DNA from: Sulfurovum sp. XGS-02
GTDB lineage: Bacteria > Campylobacterota > Campylobacteria > Campylobacterales > Sulfurovaceae
NCBI RefSeq assembly: GCF_023213175.1
Contig: NZ_CP093312.1
Location: 620,001-684,000 of the forward strand
Length of the DNA: 64,000 bases
Direction: 5' to 3'
The notes beneath the pieces were generated by a model. It did no database searches, was not told the DNA's origin, and saw only the letters and a list, made by a program, of their open reading frames with translations. The translations under genes and the position numbers were made by a program. This document shows positions 22,565 through 41,628 of the stretch, one piece after another. Every line of letters starts with the position of its first letter. Position 1 is the first letter of the stretch.

Positions 22565-23410
22565 GTGAAAGAGGCACTCAGTGAAGTTTTAGGCCAGGAT
22601 GTAAAACGTTTGGACCTGCTGCAGCAAGGCCAGATCGGAAGCATATACGTTGCCAGTGTAGAAGATCGGCGTTATGTCGTAAAGCATTCTGAACAGACAG
22701 AAAAACTGGCTATAGAAGCACATATGCTTGAGGATCTGTATGCAGCTAAGATACGTGTGCCCCGTGTGATCATCTCTAAAGGACCTTTTTTAGTACTTGA
22801 GCATATTGAAACCATTGATCAACCTAAAGTGACACAAGAGATAGAAGCTGCAACGCTTTTAAGCAGACTGCACACTGAAACCAACGAAAGTCGTATGTAT
22901 GGCTACTATTACGACACGACCATCGGTCCATTCCCCCAAAAAAATGAGCAAACCCAATACAACTGGACACTTTTCCTGGGACAGATGCGTATTATGCCCA
23001 TGGCACGGCACTGTTACGACAAAGGGAAAATACCAAAGCAGATGGTTGACCGATTGGAAGGTCTGTGTCGAGATCTCTATAAACGGATAGATATGTGTAC
23101 CATTTATCCTTCATTGCTGCATGGTGATGTCTGGAGCGGGAATGTGCTTTTTGAGAAAGAGGGGGCTTGCCTCATCGATCCTGCCATTTACTATGGGGAC
23201 AAAGAGATGGAGTTGGCTTTTATACTGCTCTTTGGTACGTTTGGAGAGACGTTTTTTAATGCCTACCGGGAGATACACACTCTCAGTGACGATTTTTATG
23301 AAAATAAAGTACCGATCTATCAGATATACCCGCTTTTGGTACATGTTGCATTGTATGGTGGCAGTTATGTAGGAGAACTAGAACGTACACTTAAAAGGTT
23401 AAAGATATGA
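22565..23410 (+). CDS. Fructosamine/ketosamine-3-kinase family protein
   Basis: This 281-aa protein uses a GTG start directly after the preceding stop. The aminoglycoside-phosphotransferase fold shows VVKHSE (ATP-binding lysine), then the catalytic loop HGDVWSGN at 186-193 and the metal-binding LIDPAIYYGDKEMELAF. In this family the enzyme phosphorylates sugar-amine adducts on proteins (deglycation). Its stop overlaps the start of the TlpA-like gene, so the intact ancestor was probably a three-gene unit ending in that gene. Confidence 0.88.
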   Translation: MKEALSEVLGQDVKRLDLLQQGQIGSIYVASVEDRRYVVKHSEQTEKLAIEAHMLEDLYAAKIRVPRVIISKGPFLVLEHIETIDQPKVTQEIEAATLLSRLHTETNESRMYGYYYDTTIGPFPQKNEQTQYNWTLFLGQMRIMPMARHCYDKGKIPKQMVDRLEGLCRDLYKRIDMCTIYPSLLHGDVWSGNVLFEKEGACLIDPAIYYGDKEMELAFILLFGTFGETFFNAYREIHTLSDDFYENKVPIYQIYPLLVHVALYGGSYVGELERTLKRLKI

Positions 23411-23622
23411 ACAAATGGAAGATAAAATCCACAATCAAAGAGATCACTATCGCCTTGGTACTTTTGTTTATAGTGAGCAGTATCATCAGTTATATTCGTG
23501 CCCCTGATCTCGGATCAAACCAGCTGCCCCAGATAGAAGCAACACTTGTAGATGGCAGTATTTTTAGCATTAGGAAAGGGAAACCGTTACTCATCCATTT
23601 TTGGTCAACATCCTTTTTGTGA
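23407..23622 (+). pseudogene. 5' fragment of a membrane-anchored TlpA/thioredoxin-like gene, cut by the island
   Basis: The frame begins with a membrane anchor (ITIALVLLFIVSSIISYI) and a thioredoxin-type start. It reaches KPLLIHFWSTS and then runs into element DNA, ending two codons later (F-L-stop). The expected Cys-x-x-Cys is missing. It resumes at about 41335 as PSCPACELEAPNIE. Host sequence ends about 23613; the last codons come from the island. The gene overlaps the kinase stop (ATGA). It has the same design as the intact copy at 30785. Confidence 0.88.
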
Positions 23623-23643
23623 AAAAAATAAATAAGTACAATC
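23616..23643 (+). repeat. Left terminal inverted repeat (28 bp)
   Basis: It reads from TTTGTGAAAAA to AAGTACAATC. Its reverse complement matches 41304-41331 at 24 of 28 positions, including an exact GATTGTACTT inner end. A weaker similar sequence, inverted, occurs at 23664-23684. Confidence 0.75.
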
Positions 23644-23714
23644 AATGAAGTAAATATCTATTTTTGTAAAATTTTAAAAGTATAATTAAATGAATATTTT
23701 ATAAAGGAAATTAA

Positions 23715-24527
23715 ATGATTTATCCTAAGAAGTCAGCAACAGGACAAGCAGGTGAACACTACTTTTCTTATTGGGTACTTAAGAATTTCCAGTGGCCTTG
23801 TAGATTATTTGATATAGATCTAGGTATTGATGCCCAAGTTGAAATTTTAGATAATAATAATCACACAACAGGTAACTTTATAGCTGTTCAAATTAAAACA
23901 ACTGACTCAACAAAAACTAGTGTACCAGTCAAGGTGGAGAATCTTAAATATTGGGAATCGATAGATGATGCAGTAGTTTTGGTATTAATATGTATGAAGA
24001 AAAAGCCTAAAATTTATTGGAAGCTTATTAATGATAAAGAAATTTCTAAATATATTAAGAAGGCTAAAGTCACAAATCAGAAATCAATTTCTATTAAATT
24101 TTCAAAAGAGAATAAATTATCTAAAATGGATAAAAGTGATTTTTCAATATTACCTTATAAAGGAGACTACTATTATTTAGGAGCACTTTTAACAGAAATT
24201 AAAGATCAATGCAAAGAAATAAAACAAGACATAAAGCATGATTGTGACACTGTGTGTCTTCAGAGTATACTAGAAACCTTTAATAGTATTTGTTTTACTT
24301 TTGATGAAGTTGACCAGTTAATATTTAAATATCCAAAAATAAATTTTTATTCAATAAATATTGAAGATGTAAAAAAGTTATATCAAGAAGTGAAGGAAAT
24401 CCTTCATGAGATTTTATGGCAAATGTTTGATGCGAATCCTGAAACCAAATCAGATATGGATAAAGACTACAATAATTCAAGTTATCATAAAGAACTAAGA
24501 GCCATGATTGAAAGTAGATATTTATAA
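23715..24527 (+). CDS. DUF4365-domain protein, PD-(D/E)XK nuclease-like
   Basis: This 270-aa protein begins MIYPKKSATGQAGEHYFSYWV. Residues 36-65 show a nuclease-like core, DIDLGIDAQVEI followed by FIAVQIKTT, which fits the D...E-x-K/Q-x-K pattern of DUF4365 enzymes. These domains are common in defence islands. The C-terminal half is lysine-rich and contains no domain I recognise. It lies first in the island, 92 bp from the left terminal repeat, separated from the recombinases by 331 bp. It may be cargo or have a role at the ends. Confidence 0.75.
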   Translation: MIYPKKSATGQAGEHYFSYWVLKNFQWPCRLFDIDLGIDAQVEILDNNNHTTGNFIAVQIKTTDSTKTSVPVKVENLKYWESIDDAVVLVLICMKKKPKIYWKLINDKEISKYIKKAKVTNQKSISIKFSKENKLSKMDKSDFSILPYKGDYYYLGALLTEIKDQCKEIKQDIKHDCDTVCLQSILETFNSICFTFDEVDQLIFKYPKINFYSINIEDVKKLYQEVKEILHEILWQMFDANPETKSDMDKDYNNSSYHKELRAMIESRYL

Positions 24528-24858
24528 TTTCAATTAGTAAGAATACAAAATTTATTACAGATATTAAAACAAATAGGTAACATTTAGCTAAATCCAGTTA
24601 CATTCAAATTAAAGGCCCATTTTACGTATAGTAGTAGTTTACATAGTTTTTTATTTATGATATAATATAATTTATTTTTATAAAAAATACTTTTTTATAA
24701 AAAAACCTTTACTTTTTCCTCATTTTCCCAATATAATTTTAAAGTAAAACATTAAAAATTAGTCACCTTTTTATTTTGATATATGGCTAAAAAACTTTTA
24801 TGAGTTATTCAATGTTGCAAATATATTTTATTGTCGAAAGGGAAAAAAGAAGTATATA
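24528..24858. other. 331-bp AT-rich gap between the DUF4365 gene and the recombinases
   Basis: No gene is seen. Two adjacent copies of the palindrome TTTTTTATAAAAAA type lie at 24676-24705, separated by TAC. These could be a terminator for the DUF4365 gene, a regulator site or part of the promoter for the recombinase operon. The last 30 bp before the ATG hold a weak purine-rich RBS (GGGAAAAAAGAAG). Confidence 0.45.
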
Positions 24859-26988
24859 ATGGGAAAATTAAAAGAGTTAAAGTTTCCAACTATACAGTTA
24901 GATGAAAGAAACGATAATAGACGTATCCATTTTGATTATGTAGATGATCTATATGCCAAAAAACATTATGGAGAATACATTATCGTAAAACATTCTGAAG
25001 CAGAGAATATTTCTACATCAAGAGTTTATCTCTCAAATGATGCCCAAGTTGAATATTATTTAGGTAGAAAAAAACGTGGTGATAAACTATTCAATTGTGT
25101 ACCTGCAGTAGGTAAAGTTAATCTTTTTGATCTGTTTCCTCAATATAAAACCTTTATCAAAAGTACAATATCTTACATAATACAAGATAGACAACATTCT
25201 TCTACAGTTATGCATTATTTAATTGGTTTTAATATCTTTTTATCAGCATTGAAATCTCATGACATTGTGATAAACGAATTTAAAGAAATTACAAATGAGC
25301 ACCATGCTTTAACCTACAATTATATAAAAGTAACTGAAGGTACAAACAACTACACCATGAGGAATGTACGCAGTTTTTTTGGTGTGGTAGAACTAAATTT
25401 AGAGCATTTTATTACAACTCGTATACCTCGTTTGGGAATAGACAATTCTATTTTAGCTCTTTCATCAACTGTATCATTTCAGATTTCTTATTTTTCAGAA
25501 GTAGAGATATCAAAAATTATTAAACGAGTAAATGAATATAAAGAGTGGATGAAAGAATATGAGAATATAGAATTATTTAGTTTAAAAAATTTAGCAAAAA
25601 CATACTATGAATCACAAGGAAGTACCGAGAAAAGGCCTTTTGGTGTAACTGTTAATAGTATTTGTATTGATTTACATGGTATTAATCTAAAGTATTGGAT
25701 ACGTAGATCTAGACGAGAATATGTATATAAAAACTTATATCAAAAAAAAATGCATGAAGAGATGCTAGAGTACTGCAAAGATGGAACAAATATTGACGTT
25801 GTCGATGAAAAAATGTATGCATTTTGGCATAAAGAAATTTATCCTGATTGGCCTTTTACTAGAACTTTAGCAAAAAAATTTGACTCATCACAAATAAAAT
25901 ATTTTAGATATAGATATGCAGAAAAATTAGGGATAGATCTAAATAATTTTGATTCTCGTATTTATCCATCAGGAGCTGAAATTTATCCTCTTATTTTATT
26001 ACTATTGATATGGGAAGGAATGAATACAGAAGTTTTAAAAAATTGGAGAGTGAAAAAAAATAAGAAAGGCGAATTCAAAATTGGAAATGAGACAAGTATA
26101 GGTTTATTGATTGAAAGTACGAAAGCACGATCTAACTCAATTCAAGCAAATGTTCTTAGTAATTCGTCTAATTTTAAAAAGTATATTGATTTTTATTTGA
26201 AATGGCTTACACCTATTTATGAAAATTCTGGAAAAGATAATTTTTTTCAGTATATCTATCTGAAAGATAAAGAAGAGCCTCTAAGAATATGGAAGAGCAG
26301 TGCATTTTTTAATAATCTGAAACATTCAAAAGACTCTTTATTCGCTAAATATGAGATTTTAGAAACAAGCGGTACTAAAGTTCAGTATATTGACCATAGA
26401 CGGATAAGACCATATACAAACTATAGAGATGCCATGGCAGATTATAGTGAATTTAAAAGGCAAATGAAAAAGGGGCATGAAAATATAGATACCCTAAAAC
26501 ATTATGAAAATTCAAAAGAATGGATAGGAGATAAGAAACATAGGATCGCAAGAACACAGAATTTAATAGTGAAAATCCTAAGAGATGATGAAGATAAATA
26601 TGAAGAAAAAATTCAAAACTTATTTAATGGTCCATTAGCAGATTGTGAAGATCCTAAAAAACCAGACCATCCAGATGCTTTAACTCTTAAAAAGAATGAA
26701 ATTTGTAGTGATTGGTTTAAGTGTTTAACAATGTGTGGGAAAGCTAATGTTGTTCCCAAAGTACATGGCCCAGTAATTTATGCTTGGATTTTATATATGG
26801 AAGAAGAATATGAAAATTATTTTAGTTATGCAGACTGGGAGAAAGAATATTCAATGGATTATATGGCAGCAGTAAATACTTTTGGAGGGTTTACATTTCA
26901 TGAAAAGAATTATTCTGAAGAAAATGCATATAAGCATGAAGAGTTTGTAAAAAGAAAATTTAAACGTAAAATGAAAATAAGAGCTTGA
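24859..26988 (+). CDS. Tyrosine-recombinase-like protein with degenerate catalytic residues (709 aa)
   Basis: This 709-aa protein looks like an enlarged tyrosine recombinase. The C-terminal region has DHRRIRP at about 512-518 in the place of the usual H-x-L-R motif, then GHENIDTLKHYEN at 539-551 with a candidate tyrosine at 549. The first catalytic arginine motif is missing: EGMNTEVLKNWRVKK occupies its usual place, with N for R. The rest is unusually long, with DNA-binding-like basic patches. It may be a regulatory or structural subunit rather than a nuclease. It starts a tight operon, with three bases to the next gene. Confidence 0.72.
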   Translation: MGKLKELKFPTIQLDERNDNRRIHFDYVDDLYAKKHYGEYIIVKHSEAENISTSRVYLSNDAQVEYYLGRKKRGDKLFNCVPAVGKVNLFDLFPQYKTFIKSTISYIIQDRQHSSTVMHYLIGFNIFLSALKSHDIVINEFKEITNEHHALTYNYIKVTEGTNNYTMRNVRSFFGVVELNLEHFITTRIPRLGIDNSILALSSTVSFQISYFSEVEISKIIKRVNEYKEWMKEYENIELFSLKNLAKTYYESQGSTEKRPFGVTVNSICIDLHGINLKYWIRRSRREYVYKNLYQKKMHEEMLEYCKDGTNIDVVDEKMYAFWHKEIYPDWPFTRTLAKKFDSSQIKYFRYRYAEKLGIDLNNFDSRIYPSGAEIYPLILLLLIWEGMNTEVLKNWRVKKNKKGEFKIGNETSIGLLIESTKARSNSIQANVLSNSSNFKKYIDFYLKWLTPIYENSGKDNFFQYIYLKDKEEPLRIWKSSAFFNNLKHSKDSLFAKYEILETSGTKVQYIDHRRIRPYTNYRDAMADYSEFKRQMKKGHENIDTLKHYENSKEWIGDKKHRIARTQNLIVKILRDDEDKYEEKIQNLFNGPLADCEDPKKPDHPDALTLKKNEICSDWFKCLTMCGKANVVPKVHGPVIYAWILYMEEEYENYFSYADWEKEYSMDYMAAVNTFGGFTFHEKNYSEENAYKHEEFVKRKFKRKMKIRA

Positions 26989-26991
26989 TGA

Positions 26992-28908
26992 ATGAAACAT
27001 ATAAAAAAATATCTTAATCAATTAAAGAGTTGTCTTACAGAAGAAGAGGTTTGGGATTTGATGAAAGGTCGAGTTTTTCCTGGGTCAGACAATTCAAGAT
27101 TTGAAGAAGATATGATACAGTTGCCCACAAGTACAGGATACTATAGTGGTGTATCTATTAATGTGGATAATAAACTTTTAGATTTGGCTTGTAGGGTAAT
27201 CCTTTTTTTGAAGTTGGACGGGGAAATATCAAATCTACCAAGAAATTCGGGGAAGAAAACTTATGCATCACATATAAGATATTTTTTGAGTAATATGTCT
27301 GATCTACACAACAATATACTGAGTTTAGATGATCTTAACGGGAATGACATGGATTTTCTGATTAATCAGCATAAAAATAACTCAAAAGAACTTGTATCCA
27401 CAACTTTATGTGCAAAATTGGGTAGGCTTGAAGAATGGATTATATTTGCAAATCATAAATTACCATTGTTTTTACAGTTAAATGAAACTCTTTTTTTAAA
27501 CTCGAAGCATTATATGGAATTCTATGAACAGTGTAGACAAAGAAAACGTGAAACTGCTATGATAGGTGGTCCGAAAGAACCATACCCACTTAATAAGCTT
27601 AAATATCTTGTTAAGGAAGCAATGCTATATCTTGAAGAATACTCCCAAGACTGTTTATATGCTGCAAAAATATATATAGAAACAAAAAGTTTTAAAAGTC
27701 TGTCTGAAAAATATAATCATGTATTAAATTATTTCAAAACAGTAGCACATAAGTTTACCGAACCTGCTCTTTTGGGGCTTCAAAAAAAATGTCAGGAAAG
27801 CGATAGTGCATTTATAGATGTAAATGGAAAGCAACAAAGAAGTGTTAGAATGGGTGATGGTTTAGTCGAGGAGTGCATCAGTGCTGCAAAAAGACTAGAA
27901 GGTGCTTGTGTCACTATTATTCTAATGCTGACTGCAATGCGCAGACAAGAATTAGCCCGTTTAGAACGTCATCCAGTAATTGAGGAAGGTGAATATCTAA
28001 ATTTTAAAAGATTTATTTACAAAACTGCGCATACTGAAAATGGTGATTTACTTGAAATCCCTATTCCTCCAATTGTCCAAAGTGCCCTAGAATCATTATC
28101 ACGAATTTCAGAAATAAAAGACGGTAAGACAACTGGTCCAATTATAGTCAGTGATTTTAGATTTAGTGAAGGTTGTAATGATAATAGGGTACAAGCTTCC
28201 ATAAGATATTTTTCTAAATCTATCAACTTAGAGAATCCTCCTACACCACATCAGTTAAGACATGCAATGGCTTTTTTGGTTGCTTTCTTAAATGAAAAGG
28301 ATGGTTTAGAGTTGGCCAGATTACTATTAGGTCATGACACAATTCTGATGACTCTTTGGTACATGGGGCACTATAGTCCACTGATTAAAGAAGTGGTTTC
28401 CGAACAATTGATCAAAAAGTCAAAACAACTTGTTGATGTTATTGGGAAAGAGCTTAATTCAGGTAAATTACTGTTTGGACCAAAGGGAAAATTGATAATG
28501 GAGAATTATGAATTTTCGGGTAGTTATGTAGAAGAATTTTCCAGTATCTTATCCGAAACCATGATCACTCTGATAGAAAAAGGACAGGCTGTTCTTATAC
28601 AAAACCCAATTTGTTTCTGTTTTCATGATATGTCAAAAGGAACTGAAATGTCTTGTCAACGCGGGCTTGGAATGTCAGATTTAACAGGTGCTCTTCCATT
28701 ACCCTCAAGATGTAATGGCTATGATTGCGAAAGTGCCATCTTTACAGAAGAATATATCCAAAGATTAGATAATACAATGATAGATTCAGAATTGGAAAAA
28801 AGACTTTTGGGAAATACCTATTTTGTTGACTTTGGTGGTTTTGATGCAATTGATCCATCTAGAAGTATTGTGAATGATTATATTATGACAAAACAAAGGA
28901 TGGGTTAG
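26992..28908 (+). CDS. Tyrosine recombinase, active-type residues (638 aa)
   Basis: This 638-aa protein has a complete C-terminal catalytic set: R317 in LTAMRRQELARL, H420-Q-L-R423 in TPHQLRHAM, G447-H448, and a nucleophile candidate Y457 (LLGHDTILMTLWYMGH). The length and position resemble TnpB of Tn554, which is about 630 aa. A cysteine-rich C-terminal segment (CFCFHDMSKGTEMSC, then RCNGYDCES) may bind metal. This should be the catalytic partner that moves the island. Confidence 0.85.
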   Translation: MKHIKKYLNQLKSCLTEEEVWDLMKGRVFPGSDNSRFEEDMIQLPTSTGYYSGVSINVDNKLLDLACRVILFLKLDGEISNLPRNSGKKTYASHIRYFLSNMSDLHNNILSLDDLNGNDMDFLINQHKNNSKELVSTTLCAKLGRLEEWIIFANHKLPLFLQLNETLFLNSKHYMEFYEQCRQRKRETAMIGGPKEPYPLNKLKYLVKEAMLYLEEYSQDCLYAAKIYIETKSFKSLSEKYNHVLNYFKTVAHKFTEPALLGLQKKCQESDSAFIDVNGKQQRSVRMGDGLVEECISAAKRLEGACVTIILMLTAMRRQELARLERHPVIEEGEYLNFKRFIYKTAHTENGDLLEIPIPPIVQSALESLSRISEIKDGKTTGPIIVSDFRFSEGCNDNRVQASIRYFSKSINLENPPTPHQLRHAMAFLVAFLNEKDGLELARLLLGHDTILMTLWYMGHYSPLIKEVVSEQLIKKSKQLVDVIGKELNSGKLLFGPKGKLIMENYEFSGSYVEEFSSILSETMITLIEKGQAVLIQNPICFCFHDMSKGTEMSCQRGLGMSDLTGALPLPSRCNGYDCESAIFTEEYIQRLDNTMIDSELEKRLLGNTYFVDFGGFDAIDPSRSIVNDYIMTKQRMG

Positions 28909-28912
28909 GTAA

Positions 28913-29371
28913 ATGGCTGCATTGTCAGAAGAAGAAAAGTCTTTAAAAGTAAGATTGAGTTGGGAAGCTTTTTATGAACTGTGTGATCAATCAGTTCTTG
29001 AAAATTATGTAACTCCTAAAAAGATTGCTAGTGCGGTCAACTCGTCAGAGTATGCAAAAAGTTTTGAGACACAACTTCATTACAATTCATTAAAGCAGCC
29101 AGGTTCAACAGAGTTTAAAAAGCTAAAAAAAGCAATTGATGATTTTAGGGTTGAGTTTAAAAAAAGAAAACTACTTGTTGATAAAAAAATAAAAGAAGAA
29201 ATTGCTAATTTGAATGAACAAATTGATAACCTAACAATACAAAATACACAGCTGATTCACCTGAAGAGAGAGTCAGAAAATGAAAAGAATGAGACTAGTA
29301 AATCTTTAGATAAATATAAAAAAGAAAATAAAGAGCTTCGAGATCAAATTGTTCAGTTGAGAAAAAAATAA
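28913..29371 (+). CDS. Small coiled-coil accessory protein (TnpC/GmtX-like by position)
   Basis: This 152-aa protein has a globular N-terminus (about 1-75, KVRLSWEAFYELCDQSVLENYVTPKKIASAV). Residues 80-152 are a long coiled coil (EEIANLNEQIDNLTIQNTQLIHLKRESENEK). It lies between the second and third recombinases and overlaps the third start by one base (TAATG). Tn554 has a small third protein, TnpC, that helps orient recombination, and Gamma-Mobile-Trio islands have a small third protein. Equivalence is inferred from position and size only. Confidence 0.65.
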   Translation: MAALSEEEKSLKVRLSWEAFYELCDQSVLENYVTPKKIASAVNSSEYAKSFETQLHYNSLKQPGSTEFKKLKKAIDDFRVEFKKRKLLVDKKIKEEIANLNEQIDNLTIQNTQLIHLKRESENEKNETSKSLDKYKKENKELRDQIVQLRKK

Positions 29372-30756
29372 TGACTATTACTTATAAGACATATCCTCAT
29401 CCTGATTCAGATATAAAAAGAAATCTTACTGTTATTTTTGTGAATAATAAACTTGATATTCCATCTACTGAATTTTTATTGAATGAGGTGAGGCATGGAG
29501 GAAGGTGTGGTGGAGTTGCAGCCGAGTCTGTTCACAGGGATAAAGCAATTAAAATCGGTGAAATGTATAGACATCTTCATTCTATAGGAAAAGATTGGAG
29601 AAGTGCATTTGAAATTGATTTTATAAGGATTAGAAATGCAATGTTGTGTTGGGATGCTAATGACAATAAAGCATATGATGACTATGAATATAAACATATA
29701 AGCAACAATGCGATGAATAGTAAAATCAACATATGGTACAAGTTTTATAAATATATGGAAAATATTGATGAGCCATTTGATTTAGTGATGACAACTAAAA
29801 AAGTAAAAGTTAAAAAAAGACATGGTGGGGTGCTGAAACATTTAGATGATGAGTATGAAATAATAGAGATCTGGACGATTAAAGTTAAACCTGATCCAGA
29901 AAAATATGTCTATCATGCTCTTCCTAGGTTTGATTATCATCATTTTGAAAAAGAATTAGAGAAAATTGATATCGTATATGCGATGATTGCACATTTTATG
30001 GTTGAAACTGGATTGCGAATAAAACCAACAGTAAAAGTAAGAGAAGATAGTTTTAGAAATTATTTAATTGATATTAATAAGGGTAAATCAATTGACGAAA
30101 AAAGATCTCACCTACAAGATAACTTTAGAAAAATGAGTTACGTGGCCAAAGGTGGTTTAGTGAAAAATTGTGATCTCCCAATAAGAACTATAATTAATAT
30201 AAAAGAAAAATACCTTTCACGTGTTTATCCTATTCGAAAAAAATTACATAGTGATAAGTATAGTGATCGTCCTGAAAAGCTTGATGAAAATGCAATGTGG
30301 ATACTTGAAAATGGGCGAATAGTAAATGAAGGTGATATTAGAAGGGCATTTAAACAAGCTTCAGAAGTAATTGGGTACACAGTTGAAGTTATTACTCCCC
30401 ATTGGCTAAGACATACGTTTGCAACTTGGATACTAATAGATTACTTTCAAAAGATGGAAATTCCCTTTACAGGTACAGGGGTAACCCCAGATGTTATGGC
30501 TATGGGAATATTGGCAGAAAAGCTCGGTCAGGTAAATCCTGAAACAGCTCTAATATATACAAGAACAGCCTTTAAAATGATGGTCGGTATGACAAGTAAA
30601 GGACCTATTATGTCTTTTAGGAATTTCAGCAAAGATAAAAGGGCTCAAGAAATTGTTGAATGCCTAGCAAGAGATGAATTTGGTAAAGATTTTGATACTG
30701 AAATATTTGATGTCTTCAAATATGCAGAATCTAAAGGTATAGTGGTAGACTATTAA
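29371..30756 (+). CDS. Third tyrosine recombinase (461 aa)
   Basis: This 461-aa protein has R216 in VETGLRIKPTV, the box H344-W-L-R-H348 in TPHWLRHTFA, G386-Q387 where most members have G-H, and Y396 (ETALIYTRTAF) as nucleophile. The motif spacing is regular, so it is probably active. The N-terminal 200 residues form a core-binding region. It ends the four-gene recombination operon, 28 bp before the thioredoxin-like gene, which probably belongs to the same transcript. Confidence 0.85.
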   Translation: MTITYKTYPHPDSDIKRNLTVIFVNNKLDIPSTEFLLNEVRHGGRCGGVAAESVHRDKAIKIGEMYRHLHSIGKDWRSAFEIDFIRIRNAMLCWDANDNKAYDDYEYKHISNNAMNSKINIWYKFYKYMENIDEPFDLVMTTKKVKVKKRHGGVLKHLDDEYEIIEIWTIKVKPDPEKYVYHALPRFDYHHFEKELEKIDIVYAMIAHFMVETGLRIKPTVKVREDSFRNYLIDINKGKSIDEKRSHLQDNFRKMSYVAKGGLVKNCDLPIRTIINIKEKYLSRVYPIRKKLHSDKYSDRPEKLDENAMWILENGRIVNEGDIRRAFKQASEVIGYTVEVITPHWLRHTFATWILIDYFQKMEIPFTGTGVTPDVMAMGILAEKLGQVNPETALIYTRTAFKMMVGMTSKGPIMSFRNFSKDKRAQEIVECLARDEFGKDFDTEIFDVFKYAESKGIVVDY

Positions 30757-30784
30757 AAAATATTCTCATTATAAAGGCATGTAT

Positions 30785-31303
30785 ATGCAAAAATTCAACT
30801 TGAAAATAAAAAAACTTTTTCAAGAAATAGTTTTGGCACTACTTATAATTTTTGTTGTAAGCAATATCATAAGTTATATACGTAAACCAGCACTACCTAG
30901 TGAAGAAATACCTACCATTGAATTGAAAACGATTCATGGACAAAGTGTTGATATGGCGTCATATAGTGGAAAGCCATTAATAATACATATTTGGGCTACC
31001 TGGTGTCCGACTTGTCGTATGGAAAACTCTAATATTGAGCAGATATCAAGTAAGTATAATGTGTTGACTATTGCAGTGAAGTCAGGCAGTAATGAGAAAC
31101 TACAAAAATATATGACTGAGAATAAGTTTTCTTTTCTAGTTGTTAATGACAGTAATGGGGACTTAGCGTCAAAATTGAACATTGAAGTGTTTCCCACAAC
31201 TTTGATATACGACAGTGAACATAAATTAAAATTTATTGAGACGGGTTATACAACAACAGCTGGATTGTTAGCCCGCATGGCGTATTTAAATAATGTTGAT
31301 TAG
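30785..31303 (+). CDS. Membrane-anchored TlpA/thioredoxin-like protein, intact homologue of the interrupted host gene
   Basis: The start at 30785 (172 aa) has AAAGG at seven bases, better than the ATG at 30779. It has a membrane anchor (IVLALLIIFVVSNIISYI) and the redox motif CPTC in IHIWATWCPTCRMEN. The C-terminus (IEVFPTTLIYD, GYTTTAGLLARM) matches the split host protein. By eye the two are similar throughout, roughly half identical. It could substitute for the disrupted gene. The role would be periplasmic disulfide reduction or maturation of cytochromes or copper proteins. Confidence 0.88.
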   Translation: MQKFNLKIKKLFQEIVLALLIIFVVSNIISYIRKPALPSEEIPTIELKTIHGQSVDMASYSGKPLIIHIWATWCPTCRMENSNIEQISSKYNVLTIAVKSGSNEKLQKYMTENKFSFLVVNDSNGDLASKLNIEVFPTTLIYDSEHKLKFIETGYTTTAGLLARMAYLNNVD

Positions 31304-32944: not shown

Positions 32945-34200
32945 GTGTCCGTGAAGGGTATAAAAATACTGAGCTTGGCGAGATTCCAGATAATTGGGAA
33001 ATAGTTACTTTGGAATCTGTACTTGAAAGGTTTCAAAATGGTTGTGCTTTTTCTTCAGAAGGTTATGTTGAAAGTGGCATTCCTATAGTGTCAATGGCAA
33101 ATATTTCTTTAAAGGGAATATTCCAATACGACTATACAAAAGCAAAATATTGGAATGAGTCTGAACTAGATAGGTTAACACAATATCAACTGAAAAAAGG
33201 TTCATTATTAATAGCTATGACAGATGTCACTCCTGATAAAAATTTAATTGGACGCATGGCTGTTATAGATATTGACGATCTGTTTCTTTTAAATCAACGA
33301 GTTGGCTTATTGCAAACAAAACCAAATATAAATCGAAAGTTTTTATCTGAATATGGAAATTTTTCAATCTGGAGAAAATATTGTAAAAATGTAGCTGCTT
33401 CAGGTGCTCAAGCAAATATTTCTACAAAAGATATTAAAAATGGACTAATCCCAGTTCCTCCTCTCAAGGAACAGCAAAAAATTGCTGATATCCTAAGTAC
33501 TGTTGATCAAAAAATTAATTTGATTAATACTAAGATTAAAGAGGCTGAAATCTTGAAAAAAGGGCTTATGCAGAAGCTTTTGTCAGAAGGAATCGGGCAT
33601 ATTAAGTTTAAGGAAAGTGAGATTGGGCAGGTCCCTATTGAGTGGGAAGTATTGGCATTAAGTGAATTTGCTAAGATCAATATGGGACAATCTCCAGTTT
33701 CGAAATTTGTAAATGAAGAAGGTGAAGGCATCCCTTTTGCACAAGGTAATTCTGAATTTACACAAAAATACTTCACGCACACAAGCAAATATTGTATACA
33801 GCCAAAAAAGGTGGCACAACAAGGAGATATCCTTTTTAGTGTTCGTGCACCAGTGGGTGACATTAACATTGCAGCGTTTGATATATGTATAGGGCGGGGT
33901 TTAGCTAGTTTAAGAGCAAAAAATAATGAGCAAGAATATCTCTATCAACTTCTGATGAAATTGGCTCAAAGATTGAATCAATCTGCTCAAGGAAGTACAT
34001 TCACAGCAATCAATAAATCAGATCTTGAAAAGCTAAAAATTGCTGTCCCACCTCTTGAAGAGCAAAAGAGAATTGCAGACATTCTTTTTACAGCCGATAA
34101 AAAAATTGAAACACTTCGAACAAAAAAAGAATTATTTGGAGCACTAAAGAAAGGACTTGTACAAAAACTTATAACAGGCGAAGTGAGGGTAAATAGTTAA
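32941..34200 (+). CDS. hsdS: Type I restriction-modification specificity subunit HsdS
   Basis: This 419-aa protein has two target-recognition domains, beginning KNTELGEIPDNWEIVTL and ESEIGQVPIEWEVLALS. They are separated by a conserved coiled coil (PPLKEQQKIADILSTVDQKI) and end with a second one (PPLEEQKRIADILFTADKKI). That is the standard bipartite type I arrangement. The recognised sequence is not predictable. Start overlaps hsdM by four bases (ATGA); its end overlaps the SIR2-like gene by one (TAATG). Confidence 0.96.
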   Translation: MSVREGYKNTELGEIPDNWEIVTLESVLERFQNGCAFSSEGYVESGIPIVSMANISLKGIFQYDYTKAKYWNESELDRLTQYQLKKGSLLIAMTDVTPDKNLIGRMAVIDIDDLFLLNQRVGLLQTKPNINRKFLSEYGNFSIWRKYCKNVAASGAQANISTKDIKNGLIPVPPLKEQQKIADILSTVDQKINLINTKIKEAEILKKGLMQKLLSEGIGHIKFKESEIGQVPIEWEVLALSEFAKINMGQSPVSKFVNEEGEGIPFAQGNSEFTQKYFTHTSKYCIQPKKVAQQGDILFSVRAPVGDINIAAFDICIGRGLASLRAKNNEQEYLYQLLMKLAQRLNQSAQGSTFTAINKSDLEKLKIAVPPLEEQKRIADILFTADKKIETLRTKKELFGALKKGLVQKLITGEVRVNS

Positions 34201-35240
34201 TGGCTTCTTTACCTGCGACAAATGGGAAAAATGTAATTGCGCCGCACACTGTCATCTTGGGAGCTGGAGCAAGTATTGCAATGACAAGATTAAATGCAGA
34301 AAAATTTGGAAAAGAATTGCCTTCTATGGATAATTTAGTAGAAAAGGTTGGACTTGCTCCACTACTTGATAAGAATGGTATTGATTATTATGGCAAAAAC
34401 TTTGAGTCACTTTTTTCGGAGATTAAAGAAGATCTTTCAAAAGAGGAAATTGCACAACAAATTGAAAAACAAATTTATGACTATTTTGCAAATATGGAAA
34501 TTTCTGATGAACTTACAATTTATGATTATTTAGTCATGTCTTTAAGCAATAATGATGCGATCGCTACATTTAATTGGGATCCTTTTCTGATTCAAGCATT
34601 AGCCCGTTGCAGTAGGTTTACTCATAATTTACCTAGAGTAATTCATTTACACGGAAATACGGGTCTTGGCGTATGCTATGATGACAGTGTAGTTGGACAT
34701 ATAAATGCATTATGTAGTACTTGTAAAAACCCTTTTGAACCTACTAAACTACTGTACCCTATAGGGAAAAAAGACTATACATCTGATCCATTGATTAAAA
34801 ATGAATGGGAGATATTAAAAGCCTATATAGAAGAATCTTTTTATATAACAATTTTTGGATATAGCGCTCCTGTTTCTGATATTGAAGCAAAAACCTTATT
34901 ATTAGAGGTTTGGGAAAAAAATGCTTCAAAAGGACTTGCACAAATTGAGATAGTTGATATTAAGTCTAAAGAAGATCTTTATGAAACATGGCAAGATTTT
35001 ATAGTACGTGACCACTATTATGTTTCGAATAATATATTTGATAGTTATTTATTTCGATATCCTAGACGGTCATGCGCAGCTTTTTTTGAAATGGTGGGAA
35101 TGCTAAGACCAAAAAAACCAAATCCATTTCCAAAATTAATGACTGTTGAAGAACTTTATCATTGGGCCAAACCATTAATTGATGAAGAAGAAAGTGGTGT
35201 TAAGTATAGTTTTAATGTTTTAAAAGGGGAGACAAAATGA
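34200..35240 (+). CDS. SIR2-like NADase-type protein, embedded in the restriction operon
   Basis: This 346-aa protein shows the SIR2 nucleotide-binding start VILGAGASIA (GAGAS at 21-25), FNWDP near 124, HLHGN at 149-153 (candidate catalytic histidine) and FGYSAPVSD, as in defence SIR2 domains that break down NAD+. It has no classical deacetylase zinc set; only one CxxC pair (CSTC) is visible. Both junctions overlap neighbours, so it is translated with hsdS and the ATPase gene. Together with the next gene it is likely an abortive-infection-type module. The trigger is unknown. Confidence 0.8.
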   Translation: MASLPATNGKNVIAPHTVILGAGASIAMTRLNAEKFGKELPSMDNLVEKVGLAPLLDKNGIDYYGKNFESLFSEIKEDLSKEEIAQQIEKQIYDYFANMEISDELTIYDYLVMSLSNNDAIATFNWDPFLIQALARCSRFTHNLPRVIHLHGNTGLGVCYDDSVVGHINALCSTCKNPFEPTKLLYPIGKKDYTSDPLIKNEWEILKAYIEESFYITIFGYSAPVSDIEAKTLLLEVWEKNASKGLAQIEIVDIKSKEDLYETWQDFIVRDHYYVSNNIFDSYLFRYPRRSCAAFFEMVGMLRPKKPNPFPKLMTVEELYHWAKPLIDEEESGVKYSFNVLKGETK

Positions 35241-36997
35241 TTAAAATCAAGAAGGTTCATATAAAGCGATTCCGATCAATAATGGATTTAAAAATAGAAA
35301 TTGATCAAAATAATAATTTCATTACAATATGTGGTGAAAATAATTCAGGTAAAACAAATACATTAAGAGCAATGAATATTTTTTTTAATCCTGAACAGTA
35401 TGATTATGAAAAAGATACACCATTCCATAAGCTTGAAGGTTCTCAAGGCGGTAAAGTATTCCCAAATATTGTTATTGAATTTTCTGACGATTCGAAGGTT
35501 TATAAAATAGAACGAAACTTTGAAAAGGATCAATATAAACTAAGTGGTCAAAAAATTGAAAGTGGAAGTAGTGAGGAACTTACAGAAAAACAGTGCATAG
35601 CTATCTTAAATAAAATTCACTTTTTTTATATTGAATCAATAAATGTTTCGTATCCAAAATTAATTAATAATTTGATTGATACTGTTTTTGAAGTTGCTTT
35701 TGCAAAATCAAGATTTTCTGGTGGGAAAAAAGCATTGAAGACAGCATATGAAGCATATACTAAAGGGCTTTTAGAAGTTTTACAGAACCTTTCTAAAGAT
35801 ATAAACCCGTTATTCCAAGAATATAAAGAAAACTGGGAAGTTGAATTTGACTTAGACAGTGATATTAAAAAGTTCAGAGATATTATTACAGATGATATAG
35901 AATTTTTCATTAATGATAGTTCAAATAAACATATAGACTCTAAAGGTTCTGGATTACAAAGGTTGGCTTATATTTTATTGCATTTTAAAATTATTGAGAA
36001 GTTGAAGAAAAATACAATTTTAGTGATTGATGAACCTGACATATTTTTGCATCAGTCTTTACAGAAAACACTACATAAGCATATGCAACAGGTTAAAAGC
36101 TCTGCCCAAATATTTATTACAACACATTCCCCTGTTTTTATAGATAGTTACACATTAAATAATGTCTTTTTGCTTGACCTAGAAATAACAGAAAAATATT
36201 ATCAACGTCGTAAAAGAACATACAATGAATTAAAAACAAAACTTGTTAATATTTCTGGAGTTAACGGTGATCATAAAATTAAAGAGTATCTTGGTATAGA
36301 TAATAAGGATTTTGAAGTTTTACGTAATTACAACATTCTTGTTGAAGGTGAAAGTGATTTGATTTATCTTAGTGAGCTTGGTAAATATTTCGGTATGGAA
36401 GTCCCAAATATTATACCTTTGGGTGGAGTAGATAATGCAACAAGAGAACTCAGCTTTTATAATAATTTTTATCATGACACAGGAGTTAAACCAAAAGTTG
36501 TTTTACTAGTAGATAATGATCGAGCTGGTAGAGATGTTTTTGATAAAGTTGTAAAAAATAAATCAAAAAGTCATTATAATAATCTTGATTTGAAAATTGA
36601 GTTGTTGCCTAATGTACTAGGTGAGAATACTAAAGAAAGTGCAAAAAATAATGAAGTGGAAGATTTTGTATACCCGGAAATTATTGTTGAGTTGGTTAAT
36701 AAGGTTTTAGCAAAAAAATCGTTGAGAAAGATCATACCTGCGAGAATAGAGACAAAAATTTCTCAAGCAGCATTTAAAAATAGTGGAATATTAACACTTG
36801 TCGAAAACGAAAAAAATGAAAGAAACCCTGAAGATGGAGGTTCAATTAATATTGCATCAGAAAGTGTTAAAAATAGTATGTCAAAGTTTTTTAAGATTGA
36901 AGGTAATACAAGACTTATAAAACTTCTTGAAGTAAATGATCAAAAATTTCCAGAAGTTAGGTCTTATCTTTATAAACTCTTTGAAGGTAACTTATGA
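35237..36997 (+). CDS. OLD-family protein: AAA ATPase plus TOPRIM nuclease domain
   Basis: This 586-aa protein has an N-terminal ABC/SMC-like ATPase: Walker A GENNSGKT at 33-40, signature-like GSGLQR, and Walker B LVIDEPDIFLH (D265-E266). It is followed by a TOPRIM domain with VEGESD (369-374) and VDNDRAGRD (D426, D428). That arrangement is typical of OLD nucleases such as GajA. The gene overlaps both the SIR2-like gene and hsdR by four bases. It may sense or cut DNA while the SIR2 partner depletes NAD+. There is no UvrD-like partner, so it is not a Gabija pair. Confidence 0.87.
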   Translation: MIKIKKVHIKRFRSIMDLKIEIDQNNNFITICGENNSGKTNTLRAMNIFFNPEQYDYEKDTPFHKLEGSQGGKVFPNIVIEFSDDSKVYKIERNFEKDQYKLSGQKIESGSSEELTEKQCIAILNKIHFFYIESINVSYPKLINNLIDTVFEVAFAKSRFSGGKKALKTAYEAYTKGLLEVLQNLSKDINPLFQEYKENWEVEFDLDSDIKKFRDIITDDIEFFINDSSNKHIDSKGSGLQRLAYILLHFKIIEKLKKNTILVIDEPDIFLHQSLQKTLHKHMQQVKSSAQIFITTHSPVFIDSYTLNNVFLLDLEITEKYYQRRKRTYNELKTKLVNISGVNGDHKIKEYLGIDNKDFEVLRNYNILVEGESDLIYLSELGKYFGMEVPNIIPLGGVDNATRELSFYNNFYHDTGVKPKVVLLVDNDRAGRDVFDKVVKNKSKSHYNNLDLKIELLPNVLGENTKESAKNNEVEDFVYPEIIVELVNKVLAKKSLRKIIPARIETKISQAAFKNSGILTLVENEKNERNPEDGGSINIASESVKNSMSKFFKIEGNTRLIKLLEVNDQKFPEVRSYLYKLFEGNL

Positions 36998-39981
36998 GCC
37001 AAAATACCCCTGAATATCTTCAAAGTGAATTACCAGCGATTGAATTGTTTCAAAAGCTTGGCTTTGATTATTTTGATGCTGGAGTTGAAGATCCAAGAAG
37101 CTCGATTAATGATGTTATCCTTTTAGATAGACTAACTTATTCACTTCAAGCAATCAATCCATGGCTCAAGGGTAACGTCCTTGAGAAGGTAATCCGAACT
37201 GTTTCTAATATTCAGGCTTCTTCACTCATGGAGGCCAATCAATATGTATATGACCTCATTACAAAAAAAGATGCCATTACAGAAAAACCTACACCTGATG
37301 CAAAGCCTCAACCTGTTTTTTTGATTGACTATGAAAACATTGAAAACAATGATTTTCTGATAGTCAATCAAATGAAATATCATGGTTCTGGGAATAATTC
37401 AATTCCTGATATTGTTGTCTATGTAAACGGCTTACCATTGGCTGTAATAGAAGCCAAGTCTCCAAAGGTAAGTATTACTGATGCAATCAGTGACTTAGAG
37501 TATTATCAAAATAATTCACCAAAGCTTTTCCATTACAATCAGATATGTATCGGAATCAATAAGGGTAAAGCTTTGTATGGAACTATTGGAGCAAGTTTTA
37601 CTCACTATTCCAAATTTAGATCTGAGGATACAATAGCACTAAAAGAGTTAATTGATCGTGAGCCAACAGTTCAGGATATCTTGATCTATTCACTTTTTCA
37701 AAAAGAGGTCTTTTTAGATATTGTGCGTAATTTCACCATTTTTGAAGTGGAGCAGGGACGAACAATCAAAAAGCTTCCTCGTTATCAGCAATTAAGAGCT
37801 ACGAATAAGATTCTAAATAAACTTCAGGATGAAGATAAAGGTGGTGTTGTTTGGCATACACAAGGATCGGGTAAATCGATTACTATGATCTACTTAGCTA
37901 CGAAGCTACGTCGTGAAGAAGCAGGATTTGACAACCCTACCATTCTAGTGGTAACGGATCGGATTGATCTAGATAATCAGATCAGCTCTACATTTCGGCG
38001 TGTAGGATTTGACAACCCTCAGCAAGCTAGCAGTATTTCTCATCTCAAAGAGCTGTTAAGAGATACTTATGGTAAAACTCTTATGACAACCATTCATAAG
38101 TTTCAGGAGAAGGCTGAAGAGCAGCGTGATAGTGTTGAAGTGCTTTCTGAGAAGAAGAATGTTTTTGTACTCATTGATGAGGCACATAGAGGCCAATATG
38201 GTATGACAGCTGCCTATATGCGTAGTGCGTTGCCAAATGCCAAGTTTATTGCCTTTACGGGTACGCCAATAGACAAAGAGGAGCGTTCGACACTTCGTGA
38301 ATTTTATGGTGGGGACTATATTGACAAGTATACGATAAAACAATCCGTTGAAGATGGTAATACCCTTGCAATCCGTTATCAAACTGGAATGCCAAATTAT
38401 TTCATAGAAAAAGAGTTGATGAATGAGGTCTTTACTGCTACCTTTGGCAATGAAAGTGAAGAGAAACAGGCTAAGCTGAAAAGTAAAGCAGCAAGCCTTG
38501 ATACATTCTTACTAGCAAAACGTCGTGTTGAAGAGATTGCAAAACATATCATCAATCACTTTAAAGAGAAGATCTATCCTAATCGATACAAAGCCATGCT
38601 GGTCTGCCATAATCGTTATCAGGCTATTGCCTATCAAAAGGCCTTTGAGAAGCTTTCCCAACAAGGATTGAATACTTTTAAGACCAGGGTTATCATGAGT
38701 TTTGATAACAAAAAAGATCCTACTGAATTTAAAGAGTTAGCAACACCTGAGGATCAAGTCAAACAAGCCATTGAAGATTTCAAATTACCATTTGGAAATG
38801 AAGGCGATCTCAGTAAGGGTGGAAAGAGGCAGTTTGATAATACTGCAATTCTAATTGTGTCAGATATGCTACTGACAGGATATGATGCGCCTATTATTCA
38901 ATGCATGTATATCGATAAGCTTTTAAAAGAACATAATCTACTTCAAGCTATTGCAAGGGTTAATCGAACGAAAAGTGGTAAGGAGTATGGACTGGTGGTT
39001 GATTATGCTGGAATCACTCAATATCTTTCTGATGCACTTAAGATCTTTAGTGGTGATCTTGAAACCAGTGATGTCATGACGGATTTGGAAAATGAGAAAA
39101 CGATTCTCGAAAATCGTCATGCAAAAATGCTTGCCTTCTTTAACCATATTAAAATTGATCGCCATAAAGAACGAGATAAGTTTGTTGATGCTTGTGTTCT
39201 CTATCTTGAGCCAGAAGATCTTCGTGATAAATTTATTGAATTGGTAAAAAGCTTTAATAAGTCAATGGATATTGTGTTGCCAGATAGCTTCGCGATTACA
39301 TATGAGTATGACTTAAAGCTTTTCAATGATATCAAGCTAGAAGCCGTCAATACACACTCTCCAGATAAACTCTATATCACCCGTGAAGAGACGAAGAAGA
39401 TCCAAATGATTATTGACGAGCATTTAAGGGCAACAGGTGTCAATTATCTGCTTTCTGAAGCGGTAGACATCACTGATTCAAAACGCTTTGAAGAAGAACT
39501 TGCTAGAAAAGGTGGAAAGACAAAAGAGTTAACTATAGCAAACCGGATAAAACATACGATTCAGGCTAACAAAAAAGAGAATCCAGAGTTTTATGAAGAC
39601 CTTGCTAAACGGCTTGAACGTTTGATCAAGGATCGTGAGGAGGATCGTATCGATCAAGCACAACTTCTATTGGAGTTTAACAAAATTCAAGAAGAAATCA
39701 AAAATTCAAAAGAAGAGTGGAAACGTCTTGGTCTTGTAGCACCGGAACAATTCCCAGTTTATAAATCTCTTGAAAAAGCTTTAGAAAACCCTAAAGATTA
39801 TACGCTGGTGATCTTTGATAAGATTGGTGTCTATCTTCAAAAGGCAGATTGGCAAGATCACGATGATATTAAAAAAACTATGCGAAAAGAGGTTAAGTCA
39901 CTGCTGCGTAGTGCAGGAGTTGACAAAGAGTTGGTAAATTCATTGCCGATTGATATACTTGAGATTTTAGAGAATCAATGA
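36994..39981 (+). CDS. hsdR: Type I restriction endonuclease subunit HsdR
   Basis: This 995-aa protein has an N-terminal PD-(D/E)XK nuclease (IPDIVVYVNG, then VIEAKSP, E153-x-K155). The superfamily 2 translocase follows, with Walker A QGSGKS (about 290) and DEAH at 395-398. Motif VI-like QAIARVNRTKSGK is visible. It cuts DNA lacking the HsdMS methylation after translocation. Start overlaps the OLD gene and the end overlaps the metallopeptidase, each by ATGA. Confidence 0.96.
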   Translation: MSQNTPEYLQSELPAIELFQKLGFDYFDAGVEDPRSSINDVILLDRLTYSLQAINPWLKGNVLEKVIRTVSNIQASSLMEANQYVYDLITKKDAITEKPTPDAKPQPVFLIDYENIENNDFLIVNQMKYHGSGNNSIPDIVVYVNGLPLAVIEAKSPKVSITDAISDLEYYQNNSPKLFHYNQICIGINKGKALYGTIGASFTHYSKFRSEDTIALKELIDREPTVQDILIYSLFQKEVFLDIVRNFTIFEVEQGRTIKKLPRYQQLRATNKILNKLQDEDKGGVVWHTQGSGKSITMIYLATKLRREEAGFDNPTILVVTDRIDLDNQISSTFRRVGFDNPQQASSISHLKELLRDTYGKTLMTTIHKFQEKAEEQRDSVEVLSEKKNVFVLIDEAHRGQYGMTAAYMRSALPNAKFIAFTGTPIDKEERSTLREFYGGDYIDKYTIKQSVEDGNTLAIRYQTGMPNYFIEKELMNEVFTATFGNESEEKQAKLKSKAASLDTFLLAKRRVEEIAKHIINHFKEKIYPNRYKAMLVCHNRYQAIAYQKAFEKLSQQGLNTFKTRVIMSFDNKKDPTEFKELATPEDQVKQAIEDFKLPFGNEGDLSKGGKRQFDNTAILIVSDMLLTGYDAPIIQCMYIDKLLKEHNLLQAIARVNRTKSGKEYGLVVDYAGITQYLSDALKIFSGDLETSDVMTDLENEKTILENRHAKMLAFFNHIKIDRHKERDKFVDACVLYLEPEDLRDKFIELVKSFNKSMDIVLPDSFAITYEYDLKLFNDIKLEAVNTHSPDKLYITREETKKIQMIIDEHLRATGVNYLLSEAVDITDSKRFEEELARKGGKTKELTIANRIKHTIQANKKENPEFYEDLAKRLERLIKDREEDRIDQAQLLLEFNKIQEEIKNSKEEWKRLGLVAPEQFPVYKSLEKALENPKDYTLVIFDKIGVYLQKADWQDHDDIKKTMRKEVKSLLRSAGVDKELVNSLPIDILEILENQ

Positions 39982-40676
39982 AAAATGTTCAATATGGAAC
40001 TCGAACTATTGAATATGAGATAGTTCGAAACAATAGGATTAAGCATATTTACATCACTGTGGAAAGAGATAAAGGTGTGTTAGTGAAAGCTGCTGATTCA
40101 GTAAGTGTCAAAGAGATAAACAAACTAGTAAAACACAAATCTGCATGGATAGTTAAAAAGCTTGAGTCGATTGGTAAATCAGTAGATTTTGGAGAGATTG
40201 TAACTGGATCACGACTTTTTTACCTGGGTAAGAGCTATTATGTAAATCTGATCAAAGAAGAGCGTGAAGATATTGAAGTTGAGTTCATTCATTCAAAGTT
40301 TAAAATTAAAGCCCCTACAAAATATTCACAGGAATCCTTGCAAGAAGCGATTGATCAGTTTTATCAATTTAAGGCTCAAGAAAAAATCACAAAGCTTGTT
40401 CGAAAGTGGAGTAATGTGATGCAGCTTTTTCCAGAGCATATAGCTTTCCGGAAGTCAAAAACTAAATGGGGTAGTTGTTCTCCAAGAAATCGACTTTCAT
40501 TTAATCCTGAGCTTATGAAGCTCTCCTCTTCATTAATAGAGTATGTAGTAGTTCATGAACTTGCACATATTGTCTATAAAAACCATTCTAAAGAGTTTTG
40601 GGCATTGATAAAAAAGTTTATTCGTAATTATTCTCAGAAAGAAGAAGAGTTAAAAGTTTTTGAGAGAAAATTATGA
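39978..40676 (+). CDS. YgjP/DUF45-type zinc metallopeptidase
   Basis: This 232-aa protein has the zinc-peptidase motif HELAH at 193-197 with a third histidine at 203 (HELAHIVYKNHSKEF). The N-terminal half (RNNRIKHIYITVERDKGVLVKAA) is the WIK-type domain. YgjP-like peptidases are repeatedly found after hsdR in type I systems. The role there is not settled. It is the last gene of the operon, coupled by ATGA to hsdR. About 630 bp of non-coding DNA follows. Confidence 0.9.
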   Translation: MKNVQYGTRTIEYEIVRNNRIKHIYITVERDKGVLVKAADSVSVKEINKLVKHKSAWIVKKLESIGKSVDFGEIVTGSRLFYLGKSYYVNLIKEEREDIEVEFIHSKFKIKAPTKYSQESLQEAIDQFYQFKAQEKITKLVRKWSNVMQLFPEHIAFRKSKTKWGSCSPRNRLSFNPELMKLSSSLIEYVVVHELAHIVYKNHSKEFWALIKKFIRNYSQKEEELKVFERKL

Positions 40677-40857
40677 AAAAACTGAAGATGCACAATGAAT
40701 TATGATAGCCTGTTTTTAGTAAACTATTTTGGTGAAAATAATTATCGCATAGCCTTTGGTCACAACTATACAATTTAGAGCAGAATAGACACTTTTTTTG
40801 ACTGGAATCGTTAGAATTTAGCTCATTTTGGAGAAAATCAGTGCAATTTCCTACCTT

Positions 40858-40939
40858 TTGTGACCAATATTACTATTTTTTAGAGTAATTGTGACAGTTG
40901 TTACTATTTTTCTGAAGTGTTATGACCAAAACTACTAAC
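40858..40939 (+). repeat. Three direct repeats with exact 31-bp period
   Basis: Copies start at 40858, 40889 and 40920. The first two share 19 of 23 bases (TTGTGAC...TTACTATTTTT). The third is looser (about 15 of 20). The core TTGTGACCAAA also occurs inverted at 40755-40765. A 31-bp period is close to three helical turns, so proteins would bind one face of the DNA. Confidence 0.6.
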
Positions 40940-40948
40940 ACTAACTCA

Positions 40949-41158
40949 AAACTTCCCATATTGAGGACTCGAATCAATTTGCTAAAGGAATCAAATTAAA
41001 AATTTACCAAAAGTGGGATACCACTTCCTATTTGGAGGACTCATTTGACTTTTGGAACTAAAAACAAGTATAAAATAGGCATAAAACTTGGTCCAAGTCC
41101 CACTTTTGGTAAATATATTACCACTTTTGGTAAATCGTGTCCTCAATATGGGAAGTTT
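40949..41158. repeat. Nested perfect inverted repeats forming a large potential hairpin
   Basis: Outer arms of 20 bp (40949-40968 and 41139-41158; core CTTCCCATATTGAGGAC) are perfect. Inner arms of 16 bp (41003-41018 and 41098-41113; TTTACCAAAAGTGGGA) are also perfect. A diverged copy of the outer motif lies at 41025-41042 in direct orientation, and further ACCACTTTTGGTAAAT copies occur at 41120. Relation to mobility is inferred. Confidence 0.7.
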
Positions 41159-41177
41159 CTAACTGTTGCTAATTATG

Positions 41178-41202
41178 TTGTACTTTTTTAATTTTATAAC
41201 AA
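41178..41202 (+). repeat. Second copy of the right terminal repeat, 126 bp inside
   Basis: TTGTACTTTTTTAATTTT is identical to part of the right terminal repeat at 41305, and the next seven bases differ at two positions. It may be a subterminal recombinase site or the remnant of an older end. A nearby inverted form lies at 41222-41240 (ATTGTAC-N5-GTACAAT). Confidence 0.65.
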
Positions 41203-41303
41203 TTGAAAATAAACAAGTATGATTGTACTTTTTGTACAATATTTGTATCGTCATGCTATTTATTGTATTTATGTAGAAAAGCCCACATTTTCCGAGTTTA
41301 AAC

Positions 41304-41331
41304 GATTGTACTTTTTTAATTTTTAAACAAA
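41304..41331 (+). repeat. Right terminal inverted repeat (28 bp)
   Basis: It starts with GATTGTACTT and ends with AACAAA; the left repeat (23616-23643) is its imperfect reverse complement. Host coding sequence resumes within six bases. Confidence 0.75.
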
Positions 41332-41334
41332 CCG

Positions 41335-41628
41335 AGCTGTCCTGCTTGTGAACTGGAAGCCCCCAATATAGAAACCGTCTCAAAAGAGCATGAAGTGTTG
41401 ACGATCGCTATCAATTCAGGAAGTAATGAAAATGTGTTGTCATACATGAAAGCGCATGGATTGGGTTTTAATGTGCTTAATGATACTGATGGAGTTTGGG
41501 CAAGGGCGTTTAAAATTGAAGTCTTTCCCACAACATTCATCTATGATGCTAAAGGTAAGTTGAGGTTTACAGAAGTAGGTTATACGACAACTGCAGGATT
41601 ATTGGCACGGCTGGAATGGATAGAGTGA
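41335..41628 (+). pseudogene. 3' fragment of the interrupted TlpA/thioredoxin-like gene
   Basis: The frame reads SCPACELEAPNIETVSKEH from the boundary, with the redox Cys pair, then IEVFPTTFIYD and GYTTTAGLLARLEWIE. An in-frame stop in element DNA (41317) lies just upstream. A GTG at 41395 could start a truncated peptide lacking the redox cysteines. Its match to the intact island copy is clear. With the 5' fragment at 23407 it makes a complete ancestral protein of about 170 residues. Confidence 0.88.

Follow-up and report, generated by a model that had tools for sequence, protein, structure and literature searches.

An integrative element interrupts a tlpA-like gene just before its CxxC codons in Sulfurovum sp. 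XGS-02 and carries an intact homologue of its target

How can a genomic island sit in the active-site codons of a thioredoxin-like gene, and what then becomes of the function of that gene? The question is raised by a locus of Sulfurovum sp. XGS-02, studied here in a window of 64,000 nucleotides (contig NZ_CP093312.1, positions 620,001 to 684,000; all coordinates below are those of the window). A TlpA-like gene spanning 23407-41628 is split between its HFWSTS and CPAC codons by a 17,718-bp element at 23614-41331. Both parts lie on the + strand and were delimited from the reading frame and by comparison with empty sites. The 5′ half (MNKWK...HFWSTS, 23407-23613) reads ...KPLLIHFWSTS up to 23613, enters the element and meets a stop at 23622. 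The 3′ part (CPACELE..., 41338-41628) picks up the host frame at 41338 with TGT CCT GCT TGT, i.e. CPAC, and ends at 41628. A previous, sequence-only reading of this DNA had proposed that an island splits a thioredoxin-like gene at its active-site codons, the two parts being 17.7 kb apart, and it was right on both counts. It also had the frame stop after HFWSTS and resume as SCPAC. The stop and the CPAC are as described, but the leading S (AGC) belongs to a footprint, CCGAGC, which is foreign to the gene.

Orthologous loci without the island were found in two relatives, G003 (L018) and G027 (L025), with the same neighbours at 84-99% identity. The neighbours shared by the three loci are cytidine deaminase, p72, a kinase, TlpA, ModE and ModA. 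The uninterrupted genes read HFWAISCPAC in G003 and HFWAISCPIC in G027, and comparison with them gives a reconstructed empty site TGGTCA[ACATCC]TGTCCTGCTTGT, no host bases being lost. The ends of the element fall where the sequence-only reading had placed them. Once joined, the host halves are 79% identical to the intact gene of G027 and 77% to that of G003, and group with both in a tree. To scan conservation along the gene, the joined host gene was aligned by codons with 27 relatives, 28 genes in all. Of 461 segments of 18 bp, the one that spans the cut (-15 to +3) is the most conserved (0.80 vs a mean of 0.62), in agreement with the proposal that the junction lies in the most conserved DNA of the gene.

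Close to the left end, 3′ of a gene for a DUF4365 protein (270 aa, 23715-24527, +, recognised by domain scan), lies a tight run of four genes: R709, R638, C152 and R461, all on the + strand. R638 (26992-28908) is a tyrosine recombinase with a full catalytic set, all of whose residues are kept in 11 elements, and a C-terminal Cys cluster. R461 (29371-30756) is a second tyrosine recombinase, and both proteins match Phage_integrase in Pfam. At residue ~387 of R461, before the catalytic Tyr, the window copy reads LGQ, whereas ten relatives have LGH. As this Gln stands where the relatives have the usual His, the window copy of R461 may be impaired or inactive. C152 (28913-29371) is a small, coiled-coil-like helper in the position of GinD, TnpC and Srap.

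The first gene, R709 (24859-26988), encodes a recombinase-fold protein of the GinC/Tfp-like kind, as judged from alignment and a structure model. It has no Pfam match above threshold, and the alignment shows invariant His, Arg and Tyr in recombinase order; in our reading of that alignment, the first catalytic Arg appears to be missing. The AlphaFold model (pLDDT 75, pTM 0.50) aligned best with XerA, XerH, Cre and the Tn1549 integrase, at Z 8-9, against Z < 5 for entries beyond the recombinase/topoisomerase IB group. Foldseek matches were weak (best E 0.6), and the VIA alignment, which re-examines the same list as Foldseek, favours the recombinase fold. Membership of the gamma-mobile-trio was considered and set aside, as NCBIfam gave generic Xer-type models only for R638 and R461, and nothing relevant for R709.

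Relatives of the block were sought in whole genomes of the class, of the genus and of two other lineages, and by a scan of a contig collection, which gave three loci only. The block was found in nine further genomes, plus a partial case (G308) and two named records, and its gene order is constant wherever it is whole. No relatives of R461 were found in viral contigs and phage records. The related recombinases (~35-47% identity) insert in other genes, as read at the left junctions. Glutathione peroxidase (GPx) is cut between GF and PCNQFG in G227, G246 and G364, HsdM between DPA and CGSGG in G599, and ComM within FGELG in G311. A secretin is the target in G585 and a CPXCG-type cysteine-rich protein in G618; in G292, the cut falls in a MutS-like protein and immediately precedes the first Cys of the HNH domain at its C-terminus (MutS-HNH). 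HsdM was checked with Pfam; the ComM, secretin, CPXCG, MutS and GPx assignments are our own reading of the sequences, and G246, G311, G585, G599 and G618 are counted for their left junction only.

The three GPx cutters come from two host families and use a site that is the same to the base; the tree built from the three recombinases unites them in a single clade (100% support), which argues that target choice follows the recombinase lineage. As read from these sequences, each lineage has its own target, mostly the codons of a conserved motif in a protein gene. The sequence-only reading had pictured a recombinase that aims at the CxxC codon region and so finds a target in many hosts. As the relatives cut other genes, TlpA is not the target of the whole family, and the CxxC codons would at most be the target of the window lineage, for which a single TlpA insertion was found. 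By the refuting condition which that reading had named, relatives inserting at unrelated sequences, the narrow claim fails for the family. The broader idea behind it, that these recombinases aim at conserved codons, survives, carried by the GPx cutters with their common codons and common clade. Among the relatives, the blocks of G240 (L044, chromosomal) and of the Aliarcobacter cryaerophilus plasmid pM830MA (L095) are closely similar, with R709 and R638 broken into several frames in the latter; their likeness points to a transfer from one replicon to another and later decay.

The ends of the window element are imperfect terminal inverted repeats, delimited by repeat comparison with shuffles: 23614-23643 on the left (+), ending in GTACAATC, and 41304-41331 on the right (-). 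A GTACAATC box lies about 20-22 bp inside either end, and none of 2000 shuffles gave as good a terminal match. Both ends could be defined in four elements. A GTAYAAT-type box is present at both ends of G364, G227 and G292 as well; by repeat score alone, G364 and G292 are not above shuffles of such AT-rich DNA. At the left junction of the window element, the 6-bp spacer of the empty site, ACATCC, is kept (23608-23613, +), and the right junction holds the foreign 6-bp footprint CCGAGC (41332-41337, +), absent from the empty gene. The same arrangement of a native left and a different right spacer is seen in G364 (GGATTT/GGTGTG) and G227 (GGCTTC/GATAGT). The right spacers of the window element and of G364 fit the coding frame of their own motif (PS-CPAC and GV-PCNQF), which hints that their earlier insertion sites may also have been TlpA- and GPx-like genes; that of G227 shows no such fit. 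A search for the donor of CCGAGC, with the pattern W-[A/S]-P-S-C-P-x-C and the exact spacer, was positive in 0 of 397 genomes. The AT-rich right end also contains nested inverted repeats (40949-41158; 24 nt at 96% and 17 nt at 100%), possibly regulatory or recombinase-binding.

The locus could also result from chance insertion by a low-specificity integrase, such as that of an ICE, an IME or a prophage, which would make the position in the motif meaningless. Such elements typically have tyrosine recombinases, and only a single TlpA insertion is known. We nevertheless hold this account to be very improbable: among the island proteins scanned with Pfam, NCBIfam and PADLOC, none was recognised as a relaxase, a conjugation protein or a phage structural protein, the block and the asymmetric 6-bp spacers fit elements of the SE, GInt and Tn554 types, and base-exact site choice by the GPx clade in two host families is hard to reconcile with low specificity.

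The sequence-only reading had missed a further gene of the island. Directly behind the recombinase genes, 22 bp 3′ of R461, lies an intact TlpA-like gene of 174 aa (30779-31303, +), a homologue of the broken target. It is complete, with the same membrane anchor as the host gene and an intact CxxC. Its identity with the broken host gene is 50%; the tree places it outside the host clade, and its GC content is island-like (0.32, against 0.40-0.41 for the host tlpA halves). No other intact member of this TlpA subfamily was found in the host genome, where the next match, besides the two broken halves, is at 24%. In relatives, the carried TlpA was matched in 51 of 60 genomes, near full length and with 44-56% identity in most genomes of the genus, and weaker thiol-redox homologues occur in most relatives. 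The conserved stretch around the cut is almost intact in the carried copy, which speaks against sequence immunity to its own recombinase.

The rest of the cargo (31388-40676, +) consists of the type I restriction-modification genes hsdM, hsdS and hsdR, a 346-aa protein, an OLD-type ATPase and a YgjP-like protein, the 346-aa protein and the ATPase being placed between hsdS and hsdR (34200-36997). The 346-aa protein has a GAGAS motif near its start and looks SIR2-like by eye, but no PADLOC model matched it; the ATPase matches the AriA/Old/GajA models of PADLOC.

The reading that we favour, with a probability of about 0.8, is that of an integrative element which is moved by the four-gene block, cuts tlpA before the CxxC codons, and brings an intact copy so that the host keeps the function. 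Three tyrosine-recombinase-type proteins and the small helper would be the movers. The joined ends of the element would have recombined with the codons just before CxxC in the host tlpA, the 6-bp host spacer being kept on the left and six foreign bases, probably from the previous site, being left on the right. Since the cut destroys the host tlpA, the island would carry its own intact version, with which the host would retain the function. Read in the DNA itself are the four-gene block and both ends of the element, the footprint and the empty site, as well as the carried copy and the target-copy pairs presented below. We infer three things: activity of the block, movement of the element through a strand-biased circle like those of SEs, and a carried copy that is expressed and makes up for the broken gene.

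The carried TlpA gene could also be ordinary cargo, useful in itself and similar to the target by coincidence. In favour of this explanation, these genomes commonly hold thiol-redox genes. The copy and the target, however, are of one membrane-anchored subfamily, the copy stands directly behind the recombinases, and similar pairings recur with two other targets. In G364, where GPx is cut, a full GPx gene (195 aa), the only whole one in that genome, is carried just inside the right end. It reads PSNQFG instead of PCNQFG. Since Ser occurs naturally at this position of GPx, we do not claim that the change protects the copy from the recombinase of the element. In G292, a 91-aa HNH protein encoded on the opposite strand is 48% identical to the severed part of the MutS-HNH target. 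A related 114-aa HNH gene directly follows R461 in L056, a short Sulfurimonas contig.

When TlpA, GPx and MutS-HNH were searched against all islands, matches were obtained only in islands cutting the gene in question, and in L056, which has no assigned target. Counted over the four fully delimited islands and the three target families, own-target combinations were positive in 3 of 4 cases and the others in 0 of 8 (hypergeometric p ~0.02). The exceptions speak for ordinary cargo: in G227, the GPx halves are 36 kb apart and no GPx copy was found in the island or in the genome, meaning that a replacement is not obligatory, and HsdM-like genes are present in the window element and in G292, islands that do not cut hsdM, where they look like ordinary restriction cargo. 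All in all, we find a coincidental likeness unlikely. In G246, GPx is also broken by the element and no intact GPx was found; the 3′ half was not found in the genome either.

A less probable alternative still is that the carried homologues are leftovers of former targets, acquired through imprecise excision or recombination at earlier sites. The domain-sized HNH pieces of G292 and L056 would be consistent with such an origin. The window TlpA and the G364 GPx, on the other hand, are complete and lie inside the element rather than beside the att site, and the island composition of the TlpA copy, together with its position outside the genus clade, points to a long residence in the island. In the wider family, as in the favoured reading of the window element, some islands would bring a matching replacement, be it a gene or a domain.

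By inserting in tRNA genes or at gene ends, islands usually leave their host unharmed. The block family cuts protein genes in the middle, at conserved motifs, and several of its islands bring a replacement along, which looks like a way of using very conserved target sites without harm to the host. Whether breaking and replacing is a general strategy, in which each lineage targets the most conserved codons of a gene, finds its site in many hosts and carries the replacement, is a tentative proposal that we consider possible rather than probable. Under this proposal, if excision leaves no empty site, as in SEs, the host gene would be broken for good, and the carried copy would bind the host to its island in the manner of an addiction module. 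The family offers a natural set of recombinases with differing conserved coding targets, and a testable idea of what makes such islands hard to lose.

The idea of breaking and replacing is already known from two precedents. SE-6283 cuts bcp and carries bcp (PMC9345347), and Nonaka et al. described bcp directly after the four core genes in pSEA1. Wan et al. (2025) reported tgl, for target-gene-like, in Tn552-II and suggested a rescue role for it (PMC12486829). SEs were reported from Gammaproteobacteria only (PMC10214605). With the present elements, the case of bcp and SE-6283 reaches beyond Gammaproteobacteria to Campylobacterales and takes in further thioredoxin-fold genes; what makes them interesting is that target-copy pairs recur with different targets, and that the choice of conserved codons follows the recombinase lineage.

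Among the closest known systems are the strand-biased circularizing integrative elements (SEs), SE-6283 above all. Both it and the window element have three recombinase-type proteins and a small one, imperfect terminal inverted repeats, a native 6-bp spacer on the left and a foreign one on the right, a thioredoxin-fold target, and a copy of the target gene directly after four core genes. SE and Tn554-type circles bring along the left spacer of their former site, which is how a differing pair of spacers arises in those elements (PMC9345347, PMC12486829). The window element thus shows the end structure that defines SEs, but its gene order is different: intA-tfp-intB-srap in SEs, against Tfp-like, IntB-like, small and IntA-like here. 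Relatedness to Tfp and Srap was not detected by hhalign (probability 1.4% for R709-Tfp and 0.1% for C152-Srap), and the kinship of IntA and IntB with the window recombinases is at the general recombinase level only. The hosts differ as well, Gammaproteobacteria for SEs and Campylobacterales for the window element.

By their description, GInts (ginABCD, PMC5385486) are also alike: they have a small helper and three recombinases, of which two are full and one lacks the first Arg, as R709 appears to; these genes lie at the 5′ end of the island, the cargo is variable and the right end AT-rich. Their order is ginA-ginB-ginC-ginD, whereas in the window the gene resembling the third recombinase comes first and a full recombinase last, and GInts are described at gene ends, at 5′ ends or in intergenic positions, without a replacement gene. 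Tn552-II, of the Tn554 family, shares an intragenic target site and a target homologue behind the transposition genes, and the foreign right spacer of the window element may correspond to the spacer that Tn552-II brings from its donor site; it differs, again by description, in having three transposition genes, tnpA-tnpB-tnpC, against four in another order here, and a 7-bp spacer (PMC12486829). We would place the window element in the SE/GInt/Tn554 kind rather than within any one of the three, as judged for GInt and Tn554 from their descriptions.

A distant likeness was found in the Pseudomonas aeruginosa megaplasmid pPUV-7 (L096), which has the same order by size (784, 700, 314 and 435 aa), three of the four proteins being detectably homologous at ~20-22% identity. 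Downstream of the pPUV-7 block there is a predicted efflux resistance gene.
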